In this document: positions 3,070 through 39,357 of the stretch, in pieces
How positions within the stretch are numbered: position 1 is the first letter of the stretch
Layout: the number at the start of each line of letters is the position of its first letter
Source of the DNA: an uncultured Candidatus Pelagibacter sp.
Lineage (GTDB): Bacteria; Pseudomonadota; Alphaproteobacteria; Pelagibacterales; Pelagibacteraceae
NCBI GenBank assembly: GCA_943841085.1
Contig: CALSWN010000001.1
Span: forward strand, 1-40,644
Direction: 5' to 3'
DNA length: 40,644 nt
Notes under the pieces: model-generated
Databases searched by the model: none
Seen by the model: the letters and a program-made list of their open reading frames with translations, nothing else
Told to the model about the DNA's origin: nothing
Translations under genes and position numbers: made by a program

Positions 3070-4425
3070 CTAATTTAATTCCTTTATCCCTAAACCTTTA
3101 AGTTTTCTATGCAAGGCTGATCTTTCCATGCCAATAAAATCAGCAGTTTTAGATATATTGCCATTAAATTTTTTTAATTGTGTAGTTAAATACTCCTTTT
3201 CGAAATTTTCTCTAGCCTCTTTTAAGGGCACAGATAAAGAGTTTTTTAAAGGCTCGTCCTTAATATCTGGTGTTTTTAACGACTCTTTAATTATATTTGA
3301 AATTTTATCTGAATTATCTGGAGAAAGAATTGCTATTCTTTCAATTAAATTTCTTAATTCTCTTACATTACCTGGCCATTCATAGTTTAGTAAATAATTA
3401 TCGTTAATATTAATGTTTAATTGTTTCAAATTATAAATTGATGAAATTTTTTTAGAAAAATATTCAATTAATAATGGAATATCAGATACTCTTTTTTTAA
3501 GTGGTTCTATATTTATCTCAAAAACATTTAATCTATGATAAAGATCTTCTCTGAAATTCCCAATTTCTATTTCATTCTTAATATCTTTACTAGATGAACA
3601 AATAATCCTGACATCAACTTTGATATCATGGTTACCATTAATTCTTTTAAATTTTTGATCAATTAAAACACGCAAAATTTTAGATTGAGTTTCAAGCGGA
3701 ATTTCAGAAATTTCATCAATCAAAAGAATTCCACTTGTAGCTTTTTCCAAGGCTCCGTAGGAAATAGAACCATTATCTTTTTCTTCACCAAATAATTCTA
3801 ATTCGTATTTTTCTATATCCAATAATGCACCGTTTAAAATTATAAAGGGACCTTTTTGTCTTTTTGATTGTTTATGTATTTTCCTTGCAATTAATTCTTT
3901 ACCAGATCCAGTTGGACCATTAATAAAAATTCTGCTTTCTGAAATTGAAATTTTGTTAATTTGATCTTTAATATCTTTTATGTTTTCACTATCTCCTACT
4001 AATTCGTACGAATAAAAAAGTTTATTTTCAAATTCTTTATTCTTATTTTTTAGATTTATGTTTTCCACAGCACGCTTAACAAAGTTTAATAATCTTTCTT
4101 GATTAAATGGTTTTTCAATAAATTCAAAAGCACCTGCTTTAAGAGCTTTAATTGCCATTTCAACATTAGCGTGTCCTGTAATAGTGATAACTGGAATATT
4201 TTTATCTTTTTTTTTAATATGGGATAACAATTCTAAGCCGTCATTATCGCCTTTATCTAATTTTATATCAATTATTGCTACGTCTGGAAGTTTTTTATCA
4301 ATTTCATTTAATGCCTGATTATAATTAGCTGCCAATCTTGTTTTGTAACCTACTTCAATAATCAAATCATTAATAATATTCCTTATATCAGCATTATCAT
4401 CAATAATTAATATTTCTGTACTCAT
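3070..4425 (-). CDS. ntrX: NtrX response regulator
   Basis: This 451-aa regulator has three domains. The receiver (about 1-120) carries acidic residues D9/D10, phospho-acceptor D53 and a lysine in IEKPF. The AAA+ ATPase domain has Walker A GPTGSGKE, Walker B ILLIDEIS and the WPGNVRELRNL segment. A Fis-type helix-turn-helix lies at the C-terminus (NISKTADFIGMERSALHRKL). The position of the sigma54-contacting GAFTGA loop reads ISYGALEKA. I recall other alphaproteobacterial NtrX proteins also lacking GAFTGA, so it probably does not act as a standard sigma54 activator. The 4-bp overlap with the upstream ntrY fits co-translation of a cognate kinase and regulator pair. Confidence 0.93.
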   Translation of the reverse strand: MSTEILIIDDNADIRNIINDLIIEVGYKTRLAANYNQALNEIDKKLPDVAIIDIKLDKGDNDGLELLSHIKKKDKNIPVITITGHANVEMAIKALKAGAFEFIEKPFNQERLLNFVKRAVENINLKNKNKEFENKLFYSYELVGDSENIKDIKDQINKISISESRIFINGPTGSGKELIARKIHKQSKRQKGPFIILNGALLDIEKYELELFGEEKDNGSISYGALEKATSGILLIDEISEIPLETQSKILRVLIDQKFKRINGNHDIKVDVRIICSSSKDIKNEIEIGNFREDLYHRLNVFEINIEPLKKRVSDIPLLIEYFSKKISSIYNLKQLNININDNYLLNYEWPGNVRELRNLIERIAILSPDNSDKISNIIKESLKTPDIKDEPLKNSLSVPLKEARENFEKEYLTTQLKKFNGNISKTADFIGMERSALHRKLKGLGIKELN

Positions 4426-6206
4426 TGTTTTATAAAGTCTATTTGTACTTTTGCTCCATTTTCAGTTGATTTAAAATTTATTGATCCATTATGGTCATTT
4501 ATAATCTTGTTAACAATGGATAAACCTAAGCCGGTACCTTTTTCTTTAGTTGTAAAATACGGGTTAAGAATATTTTTAATATTTTCAGCAAATTTCTTGA
4601 ACCCTAAACCATTATCAGTAATAATAAAATCGATATTTGATGCTTTATCACTCAATGTGATATCTATTTTTCCTTTTAAATTAACATCTTTTTTATTTTT
4701 TTCTTGAATACTTTCAATAGAATTTTTGATCAAATTAAAAAATACTCTACTTAATTGTTCATTATCTGAGTTTAACATTATTTTATCATTATCGTAGTTA
4801 AAATTTATTAAAATATTTGTATCTAATTCGTTTATTAAATTGATATTTTCTTTAATTATTAATACTAAATTATTATCTTTTAAAATAGGTTTCGGCATTC
4901 TAGCAAAGTCAGAAAATTCATTAACTAGATTTTCAATTTGTTTGATTTGTTTACCGATAATTTTTAAACTTTTATCAAATTGTGCTTTTTCATGAATATT
5001 TATTTCCTGTAAATATTTGTTTTTTAATTTATCTATAGTTAATTGTATCGGTGTGAGTGGATTTTTAATTTCATGAGCTAGTTTTCTTGCAAGATTTTCC
5101 CAGGCCTCATGTCTTTCACTTATAATCAATTTTTCTTGTTGTGTTTTTAATTTTTCAGTCATTAGATTGAAATTTTTATTTAAAATTTCCATATCTTTGT
5201 CTGATTTAATTTCTGGCACTTTAGTATTTAAATTACCCATTCCAATATTTGTAGATGCTATGATTAAATTATTGATAGATCGAAAAAATCTTGAAGAAAA
5301 CCTTATAGCAATTGAAATTGATAGGAATAATAATAATGAAACAATGACAAGATAGATAAATACAAAAGAAATCTTTATGCCTGTTTGTTTATTCAAAACT
5401 GTATAATAAAAATTAAGAGCTTCTTGGGACTCTATTAAATATTGTGAAATTTTTTTATCTAAATACTTTACTATATACAAATATTTATTCTCAAAATTTT
5501 CAAGTTTCATAATTGATGCAGATCTATTTTCATACGCATTAATAATTTTAAGCGGTCTTTTATCATTAGACACCATTTCAAGAGCATCTACCAAAGGAGG
5601 TTGATAAAAAGTTATATCTTCTAAAGTACTTAAAAAAAGGTTTCCTTTAATATCAATAATATGAACTTCATCCATATCTCGAATTATTTTTTGAGTATTA
5701 AGAAAACTTTTAAATTGATTAATATTTCTGTTCAAAAAGTTCGCACTTTTATTTAGATCATAAGCCATTAAAATTATTTCAGATTGTGTTTTTGTTCTAA
5801 CTTCTTCTGTGTAACTTTTTGCTACTTCATATGAATTATTGACAGCTGTTGTAATTTTTTTATCTAAATATTTATCAAGAGCATATGACAGTAAAAATAG
5901 AGAAAAAAGAGAAATTAAAATTGAAGGTATCAGGGTAAATAAAGCAAAAAAAGTTATATATTTTCTATTTGCTCTAGCACCGCTTATATCGATATCAATT
6001 TTTAATGAATTTTTAACTTCTTTAAATATCATGAAAAAAAGAAGAAGTAATAATGTTACGTTACCTAATAGAAGGACCTGAAGGTTTTGATCACTTAACT
6101 TTATAAAACTTTTGTCAATAAAAGTTAAAAATGTAATGAATCCCAGTAACAATGTAACAAAAAAAATACTAATTAAAAAAATATTTTTTTTGATAAATTC
6201 AATCAT
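4422..6206 (-). CDS. ntrY: NtrY membrane sensor histidine kinase
   Basis: This 594-aa kinase should phosphorylate NtrX. Membrane segments are seen at about 9-30, 42-62, 84-108 and 279-301, with an extracytoplasmic sensor region of about 170 residues between the last two. A HAMP linker follows (about 300-355), then the phospho-acceptor box LAHEIKNPL with His378, then the ATP-binding N box (NSIES), the TDNGLGF box and the GTGLGLSI box. NtrY proteins I know of are longer and carry a PAS domain between HAMP and the histidine box; here HAMP runs straight into the histidine box, so PAS is missing. The start lies only 33 bp from the divergent ispDF start. Confidence 0.93.
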   Translation of the reverse strand: MIEFIKKNIFLISIFFVTLLLGFITFLTFIDKSFIKLSDQNLQVLLLGNVTLLLLLFFMIFKEVKNSLKIDIDISGARANRKYITFFALFTLIPSILISLFSLFLLSYALDKYLDKKITTAVNNSYEVAKSYTEEVRTKTQSEIILMAYDLNKSANFLNRNINQFKSFLNTQKIIRDMDEVHIIDIKGNLFLSTLEDITFYQPPLVDALEMVSNDKRPLKIINAYENRSASIMKLENFENKYLYIVKYLDKKISQYLIESQEALNFYYTVLNKQTGIKISFVFIYLVIVSLLLFLSISIAIRFSSRFFRSINNLIIASTNIGMGNLNTKVPEIKSDKDMEILNKNFNLMTEKLKTQQEKLIISERHEAWENLARKLAHEIKNPLTPIQLTIDKLKNKYLQEINIHEKAQFDKSLKIIGKQIKQIENLVNEFSDFARMPKPILKDNNLVLIIKENINLINELDTNILINFNYDNDKIMLNSDNEQLSRVFFNLIKNSIESIQEKNKKDVNLKGKIDITLSDKASNIDFIITDNGLGFKKFAENIKNILNPYFTTKEKGTGLGLSIVNKIINDHNGSINFKSTENGAKVQIDFIKQ

Positions 6207-6227
6207 TATGAGATAAATAGAGAAATA

Positions 6228-6233
6228 TATATT
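6228..6233 (+). promoter_or_regulatory. Candidate -10 box of ispDF (leaderless start)
   Basis: TATATT ends six bases before the ispDF ATG, which would place the transcript start on or next to the start codon. No Shine-Dalgarno sequence precedes the ATG, and no clear -35 is visible in the 33-bp divergent spacer. The flanking A/T richness makes chance occurrence possible. Confidence 0.35.
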
Positions 6234-6239
6234 TTTATC

Positions 6240-7349
6240 ATGAATAGTTGCTTTATAATACTTGCTGCTGGAGAAAGTAAAAGATTTAATTCAAAAACAC
6301 CTAAGACCTACTGTGTGTATAAGGGGAAACCTTTGTTATTACACTCGGTTGATAAAGCTAAAAAATACGGAAAATTTAGTAAAATTGTATTAGTTATTAA
6401 TAAAAAACATAAGGCACTCATTAAAAAACTTAAAATTAAAGATGTTAAAATCATAACTGGTGGGAATACTAGAGCTGAATCAGCCTACAAAGCTTTAAAA
6501 AATATTGAAAAAAATAATATCAAAAATGTATTAATTCATGATGCTGCAAGACCTAATTTTTCTATAAAACTTTTAGAAAAATTAAGTAAAGAGCTTAAGT
6601 TAAATAATTGTGTGATCCCTGCAATTCAATCATCAGACTCAATTAAACAAAAAACATCTAATATAGTTAAAAATTTAAAGAGAAAAGATATTTATCTTAT
6701 TCAAACACCTCAAGCATTTAATTATAAAGAGCTATACTCACTTCAAAACAACAGAAGTGTTGAGGTTACCGATGACGCAAATTTATTTGTAAGAGCTGGA
6801 AAAAAAATAAAAATTATCAAAGGGGAAATTAATAACAATAAAATTACAATCAATTCAGATATTCAAGTTAATACATTTATAAAGTATGGAATAGGTTTTG
6901 ATGTTCATAGATTAGTGCCAAATAAAAAACTTTATTTAGGTGGAATTAAGATCCCTTCAACTCTTGGTACATTAGGACATTCTGATGGTGATCCAGTTTT
7001 ACATGCAGTTATCGATGCAATTCTAGGTGCTTGTTCTATGGGAGATATCGGAGAAAAATTTTCTGATAATAATAAAAAATTTAAAAATATTAGATCAACA
7101 ATTTTATTAGCCAAAATAATAAAACAAACTAAAAATAATAGTTTTCTAATTAACAACCTTGATATTAATATTATTTCTCAAAAACCTAAAATTCAAAAAT
7201 ATAAAAAAAAAATTACAAACTGTATTGCTAAAATATGTGAAATTTTACCTTCTCAAATTAATATTAAAGGAAAGACAACTGAAAAATTAGGTATAATTGG
7301 CAAAGAAAAGGCTATAGCATGTGAGGTGATAGCCTCAGTAATTAAATGA
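6240..7349 (+). CDS. ispDF: Bifunctional IspD/IspF enzyme of the MEP pathway
   Basis: This 369-aa fusion carries two steps of isoprenoid precursor synthesis. The N-terminal IspD half (about 1-212) transfers CMP to methylerythritol phosphate; it shows the nucleotide-binding start ILAAGESKRF, a K-containing KTPKTY segment and IHDAARP. The C-terminal IspF half (about 215-369) makes the cyclodiphosphate; it shows metal-binding DVHRL, the GHSDGDPVLHA segment and TTEKLG. The fusion is common in Alphaproteobacteria. Dxr of the same pathway is encoded at 29183-30349. The gene heads ispDF-pgpA-cinA, with a 4-bp ATGA overlap to pgpA. Confidence 0.96.
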   Translation: MNSCFIILAAGESKRFNSKTPKTYCVYKGKPLLLHSVDKAKKYGKFSKIVLVINKKHKALIKKLKIKDVKIITGGNTRAESAYKALKNIEKNNIKNVLIHDAARPNFSIKLLEKLSKELKLNNCVIPAIQSSDSIKQKTSNIVKNLKRKDIYLIQTPQAFNYKELYSLQNNRSVEVTDDANLFVRAGKKIKIIKGEINNNKITINSDIQVNTFIKYGIGFDVHRLVPNKKLYLGGIKIPSTLGTLGHSDGDPVLHAVIDAILGACSMGDIGEKFSDNNKKFKNIRSTILLAKIIKQTKNNSFLINNLDINIISQKPKIQKYKKKITNCIAKICEILPSQINIKGKTTEKLGIIGKEKAIACEVIASVIK

Positions 7350-14755: not shown

Positions 14756-14798
14756 AATGAAAAATTTAACCTATATCTTTGTATTTTACAGATCAATA

Positions 14799-14804
14799 TA
14801 TAAT
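14799..14804 (+). promoter_or_regulatory. Candidate -10 box of the ppiD-trp operon (leaderless start)
   Basis: A perfect TATAAT lies seven bases before the chosen ATG at 14812, which would put the transcript start at about the first base of the start codon. TTGTAT at 14779-14784 resembles a -35 but is only 14 bp away, so the -35 assignment is weak. The placement also argues against the TTG start at 14779, which would lie upstream of the promoter element. Confidence 0.45.
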
Positions 14805-14811
14805 TAACATA

Positions 14812-16224
14812 ATGATTAAAAATTTTACAAAAAAGAAATTTGCAGGATTATTACTTATCTTAGTAATTATCATCGCTTTTGGTTTTGGAGGTTTTGGTGG
14901 TGGATTCAATATTGGAAATCAAAATAACATAGCTAAAATAAATAATACAAATATTTCGACTCAGGATTTTATGAATTATTTAAATCAATCAGGATTGAGT
15001 GAACAGGTTGTGAAAAAAAATATTGATAACAATATAATTGAGGAACTTTTAACGACTTTAATTTCTACAACTTTACTTAGTTTAGAAATAAAAAATTTGA
15101 ATTTAAAGATGTCAGAGAATGTTTTGATTGAAAAAATTAAAAAAAATAAAAATTTTCATGATGAAAATGGTAAATTTAGAAGAACAATTTATGAAAAATT
15201 CTTATTAACAAATAACATGAATGCACCAATTTATGAATTAAAACTAAAAGAAAATGCTCTACAAAAACAATTATTCACATATATAAGTAGTGGTGCAAAA
15301 TCACCTAATTTTTTAGTAAACAAATTTTTTAAAGAAAAAAATAAGCAAATCGACATCGCTTATGTTGGTTTAGAAAAATTTTATAAGAAAAAAAATCAAT
15401 TCACAGATATTGAGGTTCTAAATTTCATTGAAGAAAATTCTGATAAACTCAAACAAGATCATATTGACTTTTCGTTTGTAAAAATTACACCACAAAACTT
15501 ATTGGGCTTAGAAGAATTCAATCAAGCTTTTTTTGATAAAATTGATGAAATTGATAATTTAATATCCAAAAATATAGACTTCAATACAATTGTTAAAGAT
15601 CTAAATATCAAACCTACACTAAAAAAAGATTATATTAATCTCGAAAATAAAGAAACAATTGAAAATAAAATTTATAATTCTAGAGAAAATAAAATTCAAA
15701 TACTAGATTACAACGAGTCTTTTATTTTTTATCAAATAGATGTAATTAAAAATAAATTACCTAATATAGATAATTTAAAATTTAAAACACAAATCAAAAA
15801 TCTATTATTTCAAAAAGAAAAATATGAGTTTAATAAGAGAATATTAGAAGAAATTAACGAAAAAAAATTTACTCAATTATCTTTTGATAAACTTGGTGTA
15901 AATGGGATTAAGAAAATTAAATTAAACTCAATCGAAGATTACTCAACGTTTGAAGCTAACTCAATTAATGTTTTATACTCGCTTCCAATTAATTCATTTG
16001 TTTTGGTGAGTGATGAAAATAAGAAAATTTTTGTTGCAAAAATATTAAATTTTAATCAAAAAGATCTTCCTAAAGACTTAAATAAATTAAATGGAATTTC
16101 AAATCAAGCAAGTGCACAGAATAGAAATAGTATTTTAAAATCCTATGATTTGCTTCTTAATCAAAAATATAAAGTAGTAATTAATGATAAAACTCTAGAC
16201 AGAGTAAAAAATTACTTCAAATGA
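14812..16224 (+). CDS. ppiD: PpiD/SurA-N-like membrane-anchored periplasmic chaperone
   Basis: The ORF track starts at a TTG at 14779, but I prefer the ATG at 14812 (470 aa): it gives the usual Lys-rich N-terminus followed directly by one membrane anchor (about 9-24), and a TATAAT box lies just upstream. The region after the anchor resembles the SurA/PpiD N-terminal chaperone domain, with the INNTNISTQDFMNYLN stretch typical of its first helices. PpiD proteins I know are around 600 aa with a parvulin PPIase domain in the second half; I see no parvulin motif here and the protein is shorter, so it is probably a chaperone without isomerase activity. It overlaps trpE by 4 bp. Confidence 0.78.
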   Translation: MIKNFTKKKFAGLLLILVIIIAFGFGGFGGGFNIGNQNNIAKINNTNISTQDFMNYLNQSGLSEQVVKKNIDNNIIEELLTTLISTTLLSLEIKNLNLKMSENVLIEKIKKNKNFHDENGKFRRTIYEKFLLTNNMNAPIYELKLKENALQKQLFTYISSGAKSPNFLVNKFFKEKNKQIDIAYVGLEKFYKKKNQFTDIEVLNFIEENSDKLKQDHIDFSFVKITPQNLLGLEEFNQAFFDKIDEIDNLISKNIDFNTIVKDLNIKPTLKKDYINLENKETIENKIYNSRENKIQILDYNESFIFYQIDVIKNKLPNIDNLKFKTQIKNLLFQKEKYEFNKRILEEINEKKFTQLSFDKLGVNGIKKIKLNSIEDYSTFEANSINVLYSLPINSFVLVSDENKKIFVAKILNFNQKDLPKDLNKLNGISNQASAQNRNSILKSYDLLLNQKYKVVINDKTLDRVKNYFK

Positions 16225-20046: not shown

Positions 20047-20071
20047 AACAATTTTTAACTGTTGTTTTTTT
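20047..20071 (+). terminator. Candidate rho-independent terminator after trpC
   Basis: AACAATT and AACTGTT form an imperfect stem (one mismatch) around a 3-nt loop, and a run of seven Ts follows after one G. It lies about 20 bases after the trpC stop and before the lexA operator, the right place to end the trp transcript. The stem is weak, so confidence is modest. Confidence 0.4.
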
Positions 20072-20075
20072 AGGA

Positions 20076-20090
20076 GAACTTTTGTAGAAC
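20076..20090 (+). promoter_or_regulatory. LexA operator (SOS box) GAAC-N7-GAAC
   Basis: The direct repeat GAAC TTTTGTA GAAC matches exactly the alphaproteobacterial LexA site GAAC-N7-GAAC (the complement of GTTC-N7-GTTC). It starts 39 bp upstream of the lexA ATG, as expected for autorepression. Confidence 0.8.
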
Positions 20091-20097
20091 ATATTTT

Positions 20098-20112
20098 GTA
20101 CGATATTTGTTC
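20098..20112 (+). promoter_or_regulatory. Second, imperfect LexA operator GTAC-N7-GTTC
   Basis: GTAC GATATTT GTTC differs from GTTC-N7-GTTC at one base and ends two bases before the lexA start codon. With the perfect box eight bases upstream it could give a two-site operator; the GATATT inside it could also be the -10 of lexA. Confidence 0.5.
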
Positions 20113-20114
20113 TT

Positions 20115-20792
20115 ATGCTAACTAAAAAACAAAAAAACCTGCTTTTATTTATCAACAAGAAGTTGAGAGCTTCTGGTATTTCACCTTCATATGAAGAAAT
20201 GAAAGAGTCTCTCAATCTAAAATCTAAATCTGGTATTCATAGATTAATTAGTGCCCTAGAAGAGAGGGGTTTTATTAAAAGATTAGCTCATAAAGCAAGA
20301 GCTTTAGAGGTAATTAAGCTTCCAGAAACTGCTTCTGCAAATGATATCTATAATAATTTTTCACCGAGTGTAATAAAAGGTGGTTTAGATGAGCAAAAAA
20401 TTAATTCTGATGAAATAGAGATTCCTGTATTGGGTAAAATCGCAGCAGGAACACCTGTTGAAGCAATTCAAAATGAAGTATCAAGAATACCACTTCCAGC
20501 TAACCTTGAAAAAAATGGTCAATATTTTGGTTTAAAAGTGCAAGGTGACTCTATGATCGAAGCTGGAATTAATGAAGGTGATACTGTAATAATCAAGAGA
20601 TCTGATACAGCTGATAATGGAAAAATTGTAGTCGCATTAATAGATGAACATGAAGCTATGTTAAAAAGAATTAGAAGAAAAGGTAAAACAGTTGCACTAG
20701 AAAGTGCAAATAGAAACTATGAGACTAAGATTTTTGGACCAGATAGAGTTAAAGTCCAAGGTGTTTTAGTATCTTTATATAGAAACTTCTAG
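20115..20792 (+). CDS. lexA: LexA repressor
   Basis: This 225-aa protein is the SOS repressor, which cleaves itself when RecA filaments form on damaged DNA. The N-terminal winged helix-turn-helix (about 1-65) contains SPSYEEMKESL and SKSGIHRLISALEERGF. The S24-type protease domain has the Ala111-Gly112 cleavage site, catalytic Ser146 (QGDSM) and catalytic Lys184 (AMLKRI). A linker of about 35 residues joins the two. Two LexA-type operator repeats precede the ATG, so it is very likely autoregulated. gltX follows after 22 bp and may share the transcript. Confidence 0.97.
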   Translation: MLTKKQKNLLLFINKKLRASGISPSYEEMKESLNLKSKSGIHRLISALEERGFIKRLAHKARALEVIKLPETASANDIYNNFSPSVIKGGLDEQKINSDEIEIPVLGKIAAGTPVEAIQNEVSRIPLPANLEKNGQYFGLKVQGDSMIEAGINEGDTVIIKRSDTADNGKIVVALIDEHEAMLKRIRRKGKTVALESANRNYETKIFGPDRVKVQGVLVSLYRNF

Positions 20793-24915: not shown

Positions 24916-25893
24916 TTATTTATTGTCTTTAATAAAGTTTCTTAAATCTTTTGCTGGGTAACCCATAACTTTTGATCCATCAGGTAAATTTTTAATCACT
25001 CCACTCCCACCTCCAATTTGAATATTATTACCAATCTTTAAATGACCAGAAATTCCTGCTTGACCACCAATCATGACATTATTTCCTATGGTAGAGCTAC
25101 CGGCAAATCCAACTTGTCCAGCAATTATACAATTGTCACCGATTTGATTATTATGTGCAATGTGAATTTGGTTATCTAAGAATGTATTTTTGCCAATTAC
25201 AGTATTTGACATTGAGCCTCTATCTATTGTATTTCCACAACCTATCTCGGCAAAATCTTTAATTATAACAATTCCTATATGAGGATACCTAATATTTTTA
25301 TCTTTATTTGGAAAAAAACCAAATCCTTTTTTTCCAATAACACAACCATCTAAAACATGAATATCATTATAAAGGATACTATTTCGGATTATAACATTTG
25401 AACCAATAGAACAGTTATTTCCGATTATAACATTTTTTTCTATAATTGAATTATGACCTATCGTACAATTTTTTCCAATTTTAACATTTTTACCTATTAA
25501 AACATTTTTTCCATACTTAACCTTTTTGTTAAACAAAGATTTGGATATATCTTTAACAGTAGTGTCAAATTCATCTTCAGCAGAATCCGGGTAAAATAAT
25601 TTTGTAATTTTTGCAGTAGCAATTAAAACATTTTTTACAATTATTTTTTTACAATCAAATGGTAAAATATTTGCTAAAGATTTCGTTGTAATGCAAAATG
25701 AAGCTTTAGTTTTAGAAGCAAGTAACTCATATTTTTTAGAATGAAAAAAAGTAATATCATTTTTTTTTGCTTCACTAAGATTTTTAATATCAGATACTTT
25801 TAATCTAGTTAAATTTTCATTTTTAACAGATAATGAATTCAAAAGTTTATCTATTTTAAAAGGACCTCTATTTTTAAAAAAAGGATTAATCAT
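24916..25893 (-). CDS. lpxD: UDP-3-O-acylglucosamine N-acyltransferase LpxD
   Basis: This 325-aa hexapeptide-repeat enzyme adds the second, N-linked hydroxyacyl chain of lipid A. The N-terminal uridine-binding domain (about 1-100) is followed by repeats with the catalytic His region IHIAHNNQIGDNCIIAGQVG and the ending GGGSGVIKNLPDGSKVMGYPA. It is preceded by a 54-bp spacer, the largest in this run, that contains a perfect TATAAT six bases before the ATG, so it probably has its own promoter. It lies downstream of fabZ, whereas the order lpxD-fabZ is more usual. Confidence 0.95.
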   Translation of the reverse strand: MINPFFKNRGPFKIDKLLNSLSVKNENLTRLKVSDIKNLSEAKKNDITFFHSKKYELLASKTKASFCITTKSLANILPFDCKKIIVKNVLIATAKITKLFYPDSAEDEFDTTVKDISKSLFNKKVKYGKNVLIGKNVKIGKNCTIGHNSIIEKNVIIGNNCSIGSNVIIRNSILYNDIHVLDGCVIGKKGFGFFPNKDKNIRYPHIGIVIIKDFAEIGCGNTIDRGSMSNTVIGKNTFLDNQIHIAHNNQIGDNCIIAGQVGFAGSSTIGNNVMIGGQAGISGHLKIGNNIQIGGGSGVIKNLPDGSKVMGYPAKDLRNFIKDNK

Positions 25894-25899
25894 TAATCA

Positions 25900-25905
25900 A
25901 TTATA
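25900..25905 (-). promoter_or_regulatory. Candidate -10 box of lpxD (leaderless start)
   Basis: On the minus strand a perfect TATAAT ends six bases before the lpxD ATG, placing the expected transcript start on the start codon. It lies in the only sizeable spacer of the bamA-lpxB run. No clear -35 is visible at 16-18 bp. Confidence 0.45.
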
Positions 25906-25947
25906 AATCAAAACTCGGATAAATTGCTCATCAATAATTATTACTGA

Positions 25948-37465: not shown

Positions 37466-38135
37466 TAAGTAATTTTATATTACCATCAATCATTTCTAGT
37501 TTGCAATCAGCCATATTTGCAAAAAATCTATTATGGGTTGCATAAATTATAAGTCTATTTTTATTTTTTAATTTATATAAAACTTTAAAAACATCTTTTG
37601 CAGTGGAACGATCTAAGCTTCCAGTTGGTTCGTCTGCAAGTATAATTTCTGGTTGATTTATCAGCGCTCTAGCAATTGCTATTCTTTGCATTTCTCCACC
37701 AGATAACTGTGAAGGATAATGATTTTCCCTTGAGGAAAGGCCCATCTTTTTAATTATAATTTTAGCTTTTTTAATTGAATCTTTTTTATCATCATTCAAA
37801 GTTAGGCCTGCAAGATATACATTTTCTAAGGCTGTAAAGTCTGAAAGTAAGTTGTTTTGCTGATAAATGATGCCAATCTTTCTTGATCTAATTTTATCAT
37901 TAATAAGAGTTTCAGAGAAATTTATTTCATTATTTTCAATTTTTAATGAGCCTATAGAAGGTTTATCAATCATTGATAGAATATTTAATAAAGTAGATTT
38001 TCCAGATCCTGATGGTCCCATAAGAGAATAAATCTTTCCTTTCGAAAATGTGTAGTTAATATTTTTTAAAACTGTAATTTTTTTATTATTAGAAAAAAAT
38101 TTAGATATTTTTTTTAATGAAATCAGATTATTCAT
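37446..38135 (-). CDS. lolD: Lipoprotein-releasing ABC transporter ATPase LolD
   Basis: This 229-aa ATPase powers release of lipoproteins from the inner membrane to LolA. It has Walker A GPSGSGKST, the Q-loop IYQQNNLL, the signature LSGGEMQRIA, Walker B IILADEP followed by TGSLD, and the switch His in YATHN. The membrane partner is encoded immediately upstream (8-bp overlap). MacB-like ATPases are related, but the partner and the LolD-type sequence favour Lol. Confidence 0.93.
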   Translation of the reverse strand: MNNLISLKKISKFFSNNKKITVLKNINYTFSKGKIYSLMGPSGSGKSTLLNILSMIDKPSIGSLKIENNEINFSETLINDKIRSRKIGIIYQQNNLLSDFTALENVYLAGLTLNDDKKDSIKKAKIIIKKMGLSSRENHYPSQLSGGEMQRIAIARALINQPEIILADEPTGSLDRSTAKDVFKVLYKLKNKNRLIIYATHNRFFANMADCKLEMIDGNIKLLNARKKK

Positions 38136-39357
38136 ATTTTAAACCTATAACAGGATCTAATTTTGAAGCTTTAATTGCTGGAAAAATTGAAACTAAAATT
38201 GTCACTAAAATTGAACAAACTGAAATTACAAGAATTGAAATTGGGTTTATTTCTGAAGGCATTGTACTTAAAAAATAAATTTCTTCTGGGAATAAGGTTA
38301 TATTAAAAGTATTGCTCAAAAATTCTCTTAAATTTTCAATATAAAGTGAAAACATTATACCTAAAAAAATTCCAAAAAAAGTTGCACTCGTTCCAATAAT
38401 AACTCCGACTAAAAAAAATATTTTAGTAATAGATTTATTCAATACACCAATAGATTTTAAAATTGCAATATCTCTAGTTTTATTTTTGACCAGTATTGTA
38501 AGACCAGAGATGATATTAAAAGCAGCAACTATAATAATTAATGATAAAATTATAAACATTACATTTCTTTCAACTTTTAGTGCTGAAAATAAAGAACTAT
38601 TCATATCTGACCAACTATAAACAAAATCATCAGGAAAATTATTTTGAACAGCCTTTTTTTGATATTCAATATTTTGAGGTTTTTTTAAATAAATCTCTAA
38701 ATTTCTATTATTATCATCTAAATCAAAAAACTCTTCCAAAGTTTTTAGATTAATAAAAGCTATATTGTTGTCAAAATCAGCCAAACCGCTTTCAAAAATA
38801 GAAGAAATTACGAAGGTTTTTTGTTTAGGTAAGTTTCCAATTATAGTTTCAACTCCACTTGATGACATTATTGTTATTTTATCACCAATGTCTAGATTAA
38901 GTGTAAAACTTAACTCTTTACCTATAGAAATATAATTCTTTGATAAAATATTTTTATTACCAAAAAAAAGACCATTTTCAAAAATTTTAAGTTTTGCAAA
39001 ATCTTTACTTTTGTAACCTCTCAAAAGAATGCCTTTTAAAGTATCATTTTTGATTATTATTGCTTCTCCTGAATTGCTTAAAATTAAATCTTTTGAAATC
39101 TTTTGGACATTTTGATTAATTTCACTTATCGATATTTTATTTTGGTAAGATTTAACAGTAATATGTGAATTAAAGCCTACTATCTTATTAATAAGTTCTG
39201 ATCTAAAACCATTCATTACAGACATTACTATTATTAAAACAGCCACACCTAAGCTAATGCCTATGAATGAAAAGATGGAAATAATATTTAAAAAACCATC
39301 TTTTTTTCTAGTTTTTAGGTATTTAAATGCAATTTCTTTTTCTAAAGTGGAAATCAA
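38128..39357 (-). CDS. lolC: Lipoprotein-releasing transporter permease LolC/LolE type
   Basis: This 409-aa permease has one N-terminal membrane segment (about 25-48), a large periplasmic domain (about 49-265) and three C-terminal membrane segments of the FtsX type. The motif FSFIGISLGVAVLIIVMSVMNGF is typical of the LolC/LolE/LolF family. Only one permease gene is present, so the transporter is probably a homodimer of the LolF kind plus LolD, as in bacteria that lack separate LolC and LolE. It overlaps proS by 4 bp. Confidence 0.9.
   Translation of the reverse strand: MISTLEKEIAFKYLKTRKKDGFLNIISIFSFIGISLGVAVLIIVMSVMNGFRSELINKIVGFNSHITVKSYQNKISISEINQNVQKISKDLILSNSGEAIIIKNDTLKGILLRGYKSKDFAKLKIFENGLFFGNKNILSKNYISIGKELSFTLNLDIGDKITIMSSSGVETIIGNLPKQKTFVISSIFESGLADFDNNIAFINLKTLEEFFDLDDNNRNLEIYLKKPQNIEYQKKAVQNNFPDDFVYSWSDMNSSLFSALKVERNVMFIILSLIIIVAAFNIISGLTILVKNKTRDIAILKSIGVLNKSITKIFFLVGVIIGTSATFFGIFLGIMFSLYIENLREFLSNTFNITLFPEEIYFLSTMPSEINPISILVISVCSILVTILVSIFPAIKASKLDPVIGLKYE

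Follow-up and report, generated by a model that had tools for sequence, protein, structure and literature searches.

Leaderless genes recognized by a TANNNT hexamer about 12 bp before the start account for 19% of genes in Actinobacteria and 39% in Deinococcus-Thermus, and leaderless signals were reported in just 2 of 117 alphaproteobacteria (Zheng et al. 2011, PMC3160421). In the alphaproteobacterium Zymomonas mobilis, 119 of 2,675 start-gene pairs had leaders of 5 nt or less, and the mean 5' UTR was 111 nt (PMC7566282). Where one symmetric −10 element is shared by two divergent transcripts, the starts are usually 18 bp apart (PMC10268837). SAR11 bacteria rank with the ocean's most abundant cells, and their intergenic spacers are very short. 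A search of the open-access literature turned up no paper dealing with leaderless mRNAs or with mapped transcription starts in SAR11, and none that maps how promoters and ribosome loading fit into SAR11 spacers. Leaderless initiation is already known in kind, and its use by SAR11 would be a new instance.

We analyzed a 40,644-nt stretch of Candidatus Pelagibacter DNA (the window), in which an earlier note had proposed leaderless mRNAs for ispDF, ppiD, lexA, and lpxD. Our results suggest that in this streamlined SAR11 genome a small minority of genes have a promoter box so near the start codon that the mRNA probably begins right at the coding sequence or a few bases from it. Such genes resemble the class of Zheng et al. 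(2011, PMC3160421) in having a −10-like hexamer placed so that +1 would fall on the start codon and in showing no Shine-Dalgarno (SD) sequence, though that is the norm in every gene class here. However, that class is large in Actinobacteria and Deinococcus-Thermus, whereas the excess found here is ~9% of spacer-preceded genes and concerns predicted transcripts. They also resemble the leaderless genes of Z. mobilis (PMC7566282), likewise an alphaproteobacterium with a similarly small minority, although leaderless transcripts were mapped by experiment there and are predicted here, and SAR11 spacers are far shorter.

Genomes and confirmed start codons

The window comes from a 0.9-Mb metagenome-assembled genome of 73 contigs, and its gltX is 86% identical to gltX of Candidatus Pelagibacter ubique HTCC9565, which puts it in the Pelagibacteraceae (SAR11). 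Pfam bore out the gene names for the NtrY-like kinase, IspDF, triosephosphate isomerase, the SurA-N/PpiD-like protein, LexA, GltX, LpxD, and FabZ. A gene finder was run on 0.72 Mb of the window's genome, 0.8 Mb of a complete genome of the same genus (G011), and 0.8 Mb from six more species, giving eight species overall. Start codons were kept only if orthologs had ATG at the same aligned position (n = 1,228). Two classes of gene were compared, operon-internal genes and spacer-preceded genes, the latter with an upstream spacer that was divergent and at least 18 bp or co-directional and at least 15 bp. After weighting of orthologs, hexamers differing from TATAAT by no more than one base were tallied by their distance to the ATG (the gap) across 184 ortholog groups of the eight species. 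The features of the window are listed in Table 1.

Table 1 Upstream features of the five genes considered in the window.
Feature	Position	Strand	Basis
Divergent spacer, ntrY-like kinase (4422-6206, −) / ispDF (6240-7349, +), 33 bp	6207..6239	.	Sequence, Pfam
TATATT, candidate −10 of ispDF, 6 nt before ATG at 6240	6228..6233	+	Sequence
Divergent spacer, tpiA (−) / ppiD (+), 56 bp	14756..14811	.	Strongly conserved in Pelagibacter
TAGGTT, candidate −10 of tpiA, 12 nt before tpiA ATG	14768..14773	−	TAGATT there in 28/31 distinct relatives
TTGATC, candidate −35 of tpiA, N17 from −10	14791..14796	−	27/31 distinct relatives
TATATA, 9 nt before ppiD ATG, overlapping TATAAT	14797-14802	+	Equals aligned conserved element TAWATW
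TATAAT, ppiD box of the earlier note, 7 nt before ATG at 14812	14799-14804	+	Sequence
TTGTTT, candidate −35 of lexA	20062..20067	+	TTG at this site in 43/43 distinct relatives
LexA operator array (GAAC-N7-GAAC-N7-GTAC-N7-GTTC) with its end 2 nt from lexA ATG	20076..20112	+	Each element in 43/43 distinct relatives
TAGAAC, candidate −10 of lexA, N17 from −35	20085..20090	+	43/43 distinct relatives
GATATT, lexA box of the earlier note, 7 nt before ATG at 20115	20102..20107	+	In N7 of last LexA box
fabZ-lpxD spacer, 54 bp	25894..25947	−	Stem-loop abutting lpxD ATG in most relatives
TATAAT, lpxD box of the earlier note, 6 nt before ATG at 25893	25900..25905	−	Not conserved

Position of −10-like hexamers across genomes

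Among spacer-preceded genes, a TATAAT-like hexamer lay at a gap of 5–8 nt in 45.9 of the 184 ortholog groups, compared with 29.9 expected from a shuffle that kept in-frame triplets (z 4.4). This was the only enriched 4-nt window, as all others to 28 nt had z values from −0.7 to +0.9, and no comparable excess was present among operon-internal genes. The earlier note had anticipated a peak at 6–7 nt; the one that emerged was modest and spanned 5–8 nt, while the count at 6–7 nt alone was not significant (16.5 vs. 14.5 expected, z 0.7).

At gaps 5 and 8, some of the signal was in phase with in-frame TAA triplets. A null based on dinucleotide shuffling by itself was dropped because the peaks at these two gaps share that phase, and the frame-keeping triplet shuffle and a count of hexamers free of stop triplets were therefore used instead; the latter gave 17.4 at gap 5–8, with 11.6 expected (z 2.6). 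When spacer-preceded genes were scored with an E. coli −10 matrix, peaks appeared at gaps 5, 6, and 8 (z 2.6, 3.6, and 2.4), and nothing similar was found in internal genes. Among 20 anagrams, TATAAT ranked first when co-directional spacer-preceded genes were scored and 13th when internal genes were. In a noisier replicate based on unconfirmed starts, divergent genes showed no excess (29 vs. 38) and co-directional genes a weak one (45 vs. 34, z 2.3). No clear −35 signal accompanied the boxes in TTGACA tests. An EM motif search returned two candidate motifs, one TATA-like at gap 5–8 and the other SD-like (AAGGAG) at gap 4–5. The excess at gap 5–8 is real but small, and the view that genes following a real spacer have such boxes was too strong, since only ~9% of them do so above chance.

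Promoter candidates in the window

All four hexamers lie where the earlier note had placed them. A TATAAT-like hexamer at gap 6–7 preceded 4 of the 10 spacer-preceded genes in the window, compared with 0.96 expected from frame-keeping shuffles (P ~0.01), and exact TATAAT occurred there twice, compared with 0.16 expected (P ~0.01), both P values being post hoc because the gap was picked after looking. The fourth of these genes is 38128-39225 (TTTAAT, start unconfirmed) and not lexA, whose GATATT has two mismatches to TATAAT. A −10-like box about 5–8 nt before the start, above background, was supported genome-wide and not at lexA or lpxD. Conservation of the hexamers among orthologs differed by locus: it extended to all relatives at ppiD and was absent at lpxD and lexA, while at ispDF a box occurred in half of the species, not significantly more than expected. 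Of the four named loci, one is a good case, one is possible, and two have other explanations.

The good case is ppiD, for which the leaderless call was supported in a near-leaderless form. TAWATW preceded the ppiD ATG in 57/57 relatives, at a gap of 9 nt in 50 of them, 8 nt in five, and 7 nt in two. The bases between this element and the ATG vary, and TAWATW itself is better conserved. On this evidence ppiD is the likeliest near-leaderless gene in the window, with a start predicted 0–3 nt upstream of the ATG. The remaining conservation of the spacer is explained by the candidate divergent tpiA promoter, whose pattern TTGATC-N17-TAGATT occurs in ~90% of relatives, and tpiA looks short-leadered, with a predicted leader of ~5–7 nt. 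The ispDF gene is a possible case: its spacer is 24–46 bp long in 16 species of the genus, and a TATAAT-like box at gap 4–8 was present in 8 of the 16 compared with 5.3 expected (P 0.12), which is compatible with leaderless initiation and not significant.

The alphaproteobacterial SOS box is GTTC-N7-GTTC. The GAAC-N7-GAAC part of the lexA array is its reverse complement, whereas the second repeat, GTAC-N7-GTTC, differs from it and stops just 2 nt short of the start codon. The array is 11-bp-phased, and bases −40 to −1 are nearly invariant. Further upstream, TTG at −53 and TAGAAC at −30 (TTG-N20-TAGAAC) were present in 43/43 distinct relatives and overlap the first operator. This candidate promoter, with a spacing of 17 nt, predicts a lexA leader of ~17 nt. 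The leaderless call is not supported for lexA, because GATATT falls inside the operator array and a better promoter candidate lies upstream of it.

The hexamer before lpxD is private to the window, with a TATAAT-like box at gap 5–8 in only 1 of 71 relatives. It is quite likely that some of these genes lack a dedicated promoter and that lpxD is one of them, being cotranscribed with fabZ and having an RNA stem-loop as its start region in relatives. The genes fabZ, lpxD, lpxA, lpxI, and lpxB all lie on one strand, and a stem-loop (TTGCTTT-GNTA-AAAGCAA) abuts the lpxD ATG in most Pelagibacter (fabZ-lpxD spacer, loci L173-L251). The mean longest stem of the spacer was 7.4, compared with 5.0 after shuffling, and 4 of 9 pairs were changed on both sides in hand-chosen sequences. 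However, the window's own spacer has no clear stem (longest 6), and lpxD could have gained a promoter here. No Rfam match was found in the four loci scanned, and the stem-loop may take part in RNA control of lpxD translation or in mRNA processing. Operon-internal after fabZ, with a private hexamer where relatives have a stem-loop, lpxD is probably not leaderless.

Shine-Dalgarno sequences

None of the four genes has an SD sequence, as the earlier note had pointed out, and none was found in relatives of ppiD (0/57), lexA (0/78), or lpxD (0/71). This absence is not diagnostic, because internal genes, which cannot be leaderless, lack an SD sequence as often. In the eight genomes, an SD-like tetramer preceded 13% of confirmed starts (7% by chance) and 11% of internal genes (8% by chance). 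Within divergent spacers of 18–49 bp, it was found in 0/29 groups, compared with 15% for longer divergent spacers, which fits short leaders in the former, although no more than 0.5 was expected by chance. A search for the anti-SD with a 16S tail pattern gave no match in 41 genomes, and an L127 match once taken for 16S was ruled out as not rRNA.

Short divergent spacers outside the window

Of 23 divergent pairs whose confirmed starts lie 16–36 bp apart, nine had a TATA-like box at gap 4–10 on both genes, compared with 4.2 after shuffling (P 0.004). The clearest pair encodes a pyridine-nucleotide oxidoreductase (TrxB-like) and an ELM1-like protein, with a spacer of exactly 21 bp reading CAT-N6-CTATATAG-N7-ATG. 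It was kept in 29 of the 33 species having the ELM1 gene, in 12 distinct sequences (L088:986-1012 and 28 other genomes). The central TATATA is invariant, 7 and 8 nt from the start codons, and the flanks vary.

An identical 21-bp CAT-N6-CTATATAG-N7-ATG layout was observed at another locus in four species (G009:C10:3732-3758, G010:C4:48308-48334, G012:C3:36362-36388, and G017:C7:17148-17174). Separately, ten genomes of the neighbouring (f2) family share a conserved TATCAATGACTATATAGGCTARTAATG, e.g. G037:C1:349338-349364. A search pattern for a 28-bp divergent spacer was dropped as too A/T-rich for specificity.

If starts are 18 bp apart, as is usual for a shared symmetric −10 (PMC10268837), 21 bp between start codons leaves a leader of 1–2 nt on each side. 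The 21-bp spacer of the 29 species combines a symmetric −10 with a spacing that fits such starts. It is similar to the bidirectional promoters of Warman et al. (2021, described in PMC10268837) in the symmetric TATA box and in the match between 18-bp starts and spacers of 20–21 bp. The promoters described there mostly serve one mRNA and one non-coding RNA, whereas two nearly leaderless protein-coding mRNAs are predicted here. We tentatively propose, at a little short of an even chance, that the 20–21 bp divergent spacers of Pelagibacter are complete bidirectional promoters, in which a symmetric −10 centred 7–8 nt from each start would produce two leaderless mRNAs. The idea that leaderless starts help to reduce spacers has its best support in these conserved spacers outside the window, where it is drawn from geometry and conservation.

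Discussion

From the observed hexamers, their spacing, enrichment, and conservation, we infer sigma-factor binding, start positions, and leaderless translation as follows. The 5' ends of Pelagibacter mRNAs would be short and mostly without SD sequences. In perhaps 5–10% of genes that come first in a transcription unit, the −10 would end 5–9 nt before the start codon, with transcription predicted to start at the ATG or no more than ~3 nt from it. In the window, ppiD would be the likeliest example and ispDF a possible one, while lexA and tpiA would have their longer predicted leaders and lpxD would probably be transcribed as part of the operon upstream. Where divergent spacers are tightest (20–21 bp), one symmetric −10 would serve both genes with a leader of 0–2 nt per side. 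Taken as a whole, this explanation is the one we lean towards. The leaderless interpretation of the earlier note is partly supported, by the modest 5–8 nt peak and by ppiD, and fails for lexA and lpxD.

Initiation without SD sequences on short leaders, with starts 5–20 nt upstream, ribosomes loading on A/U-rich unstructured leaders, and leaderless mRNAs rare, is a serious possibility that we hold to be somewhat improbable. The conserved promoters of lexA (~17-nt leader) and tpiA (5–7 nt) are of this kind, and SD use is low in every class, including the internal genes. However, such initiation leaves the specific 5–8 nt peak unexplained, and the 20–21-bp divergent spacers are too short to fit two such leaders. 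That the hexamers are A/T-rich coincidences, from which the earlier note picked a local run, is unlikely: spacers of ~80% A+T do give a near-TATAAT at any given gap in 4–6% of genes, the window P values are post hoc, gap 6–7 alone is not enriched, and the lpxD and ispDF boxes are private and not significant, respectively, but the gap 5–8 excess persists under dinucleotide as well as frame-keeping shuffling, with no counterpart in internal genes, and the ppiD box and the 21-bp spacer are conserved.

If the favoured explanation is true, a class of near-leaderless genes, together with divergent pairs that share one −10, would provide SAR11 with a concrete route to spacer reduction. Were the smallest divergent spacers complete bidirectional promoters, the TrxB-like/ELM1-like spacer would be near the shortest regulatory spacer able to serve two genes, held at exactly 21 bp genus-wide.
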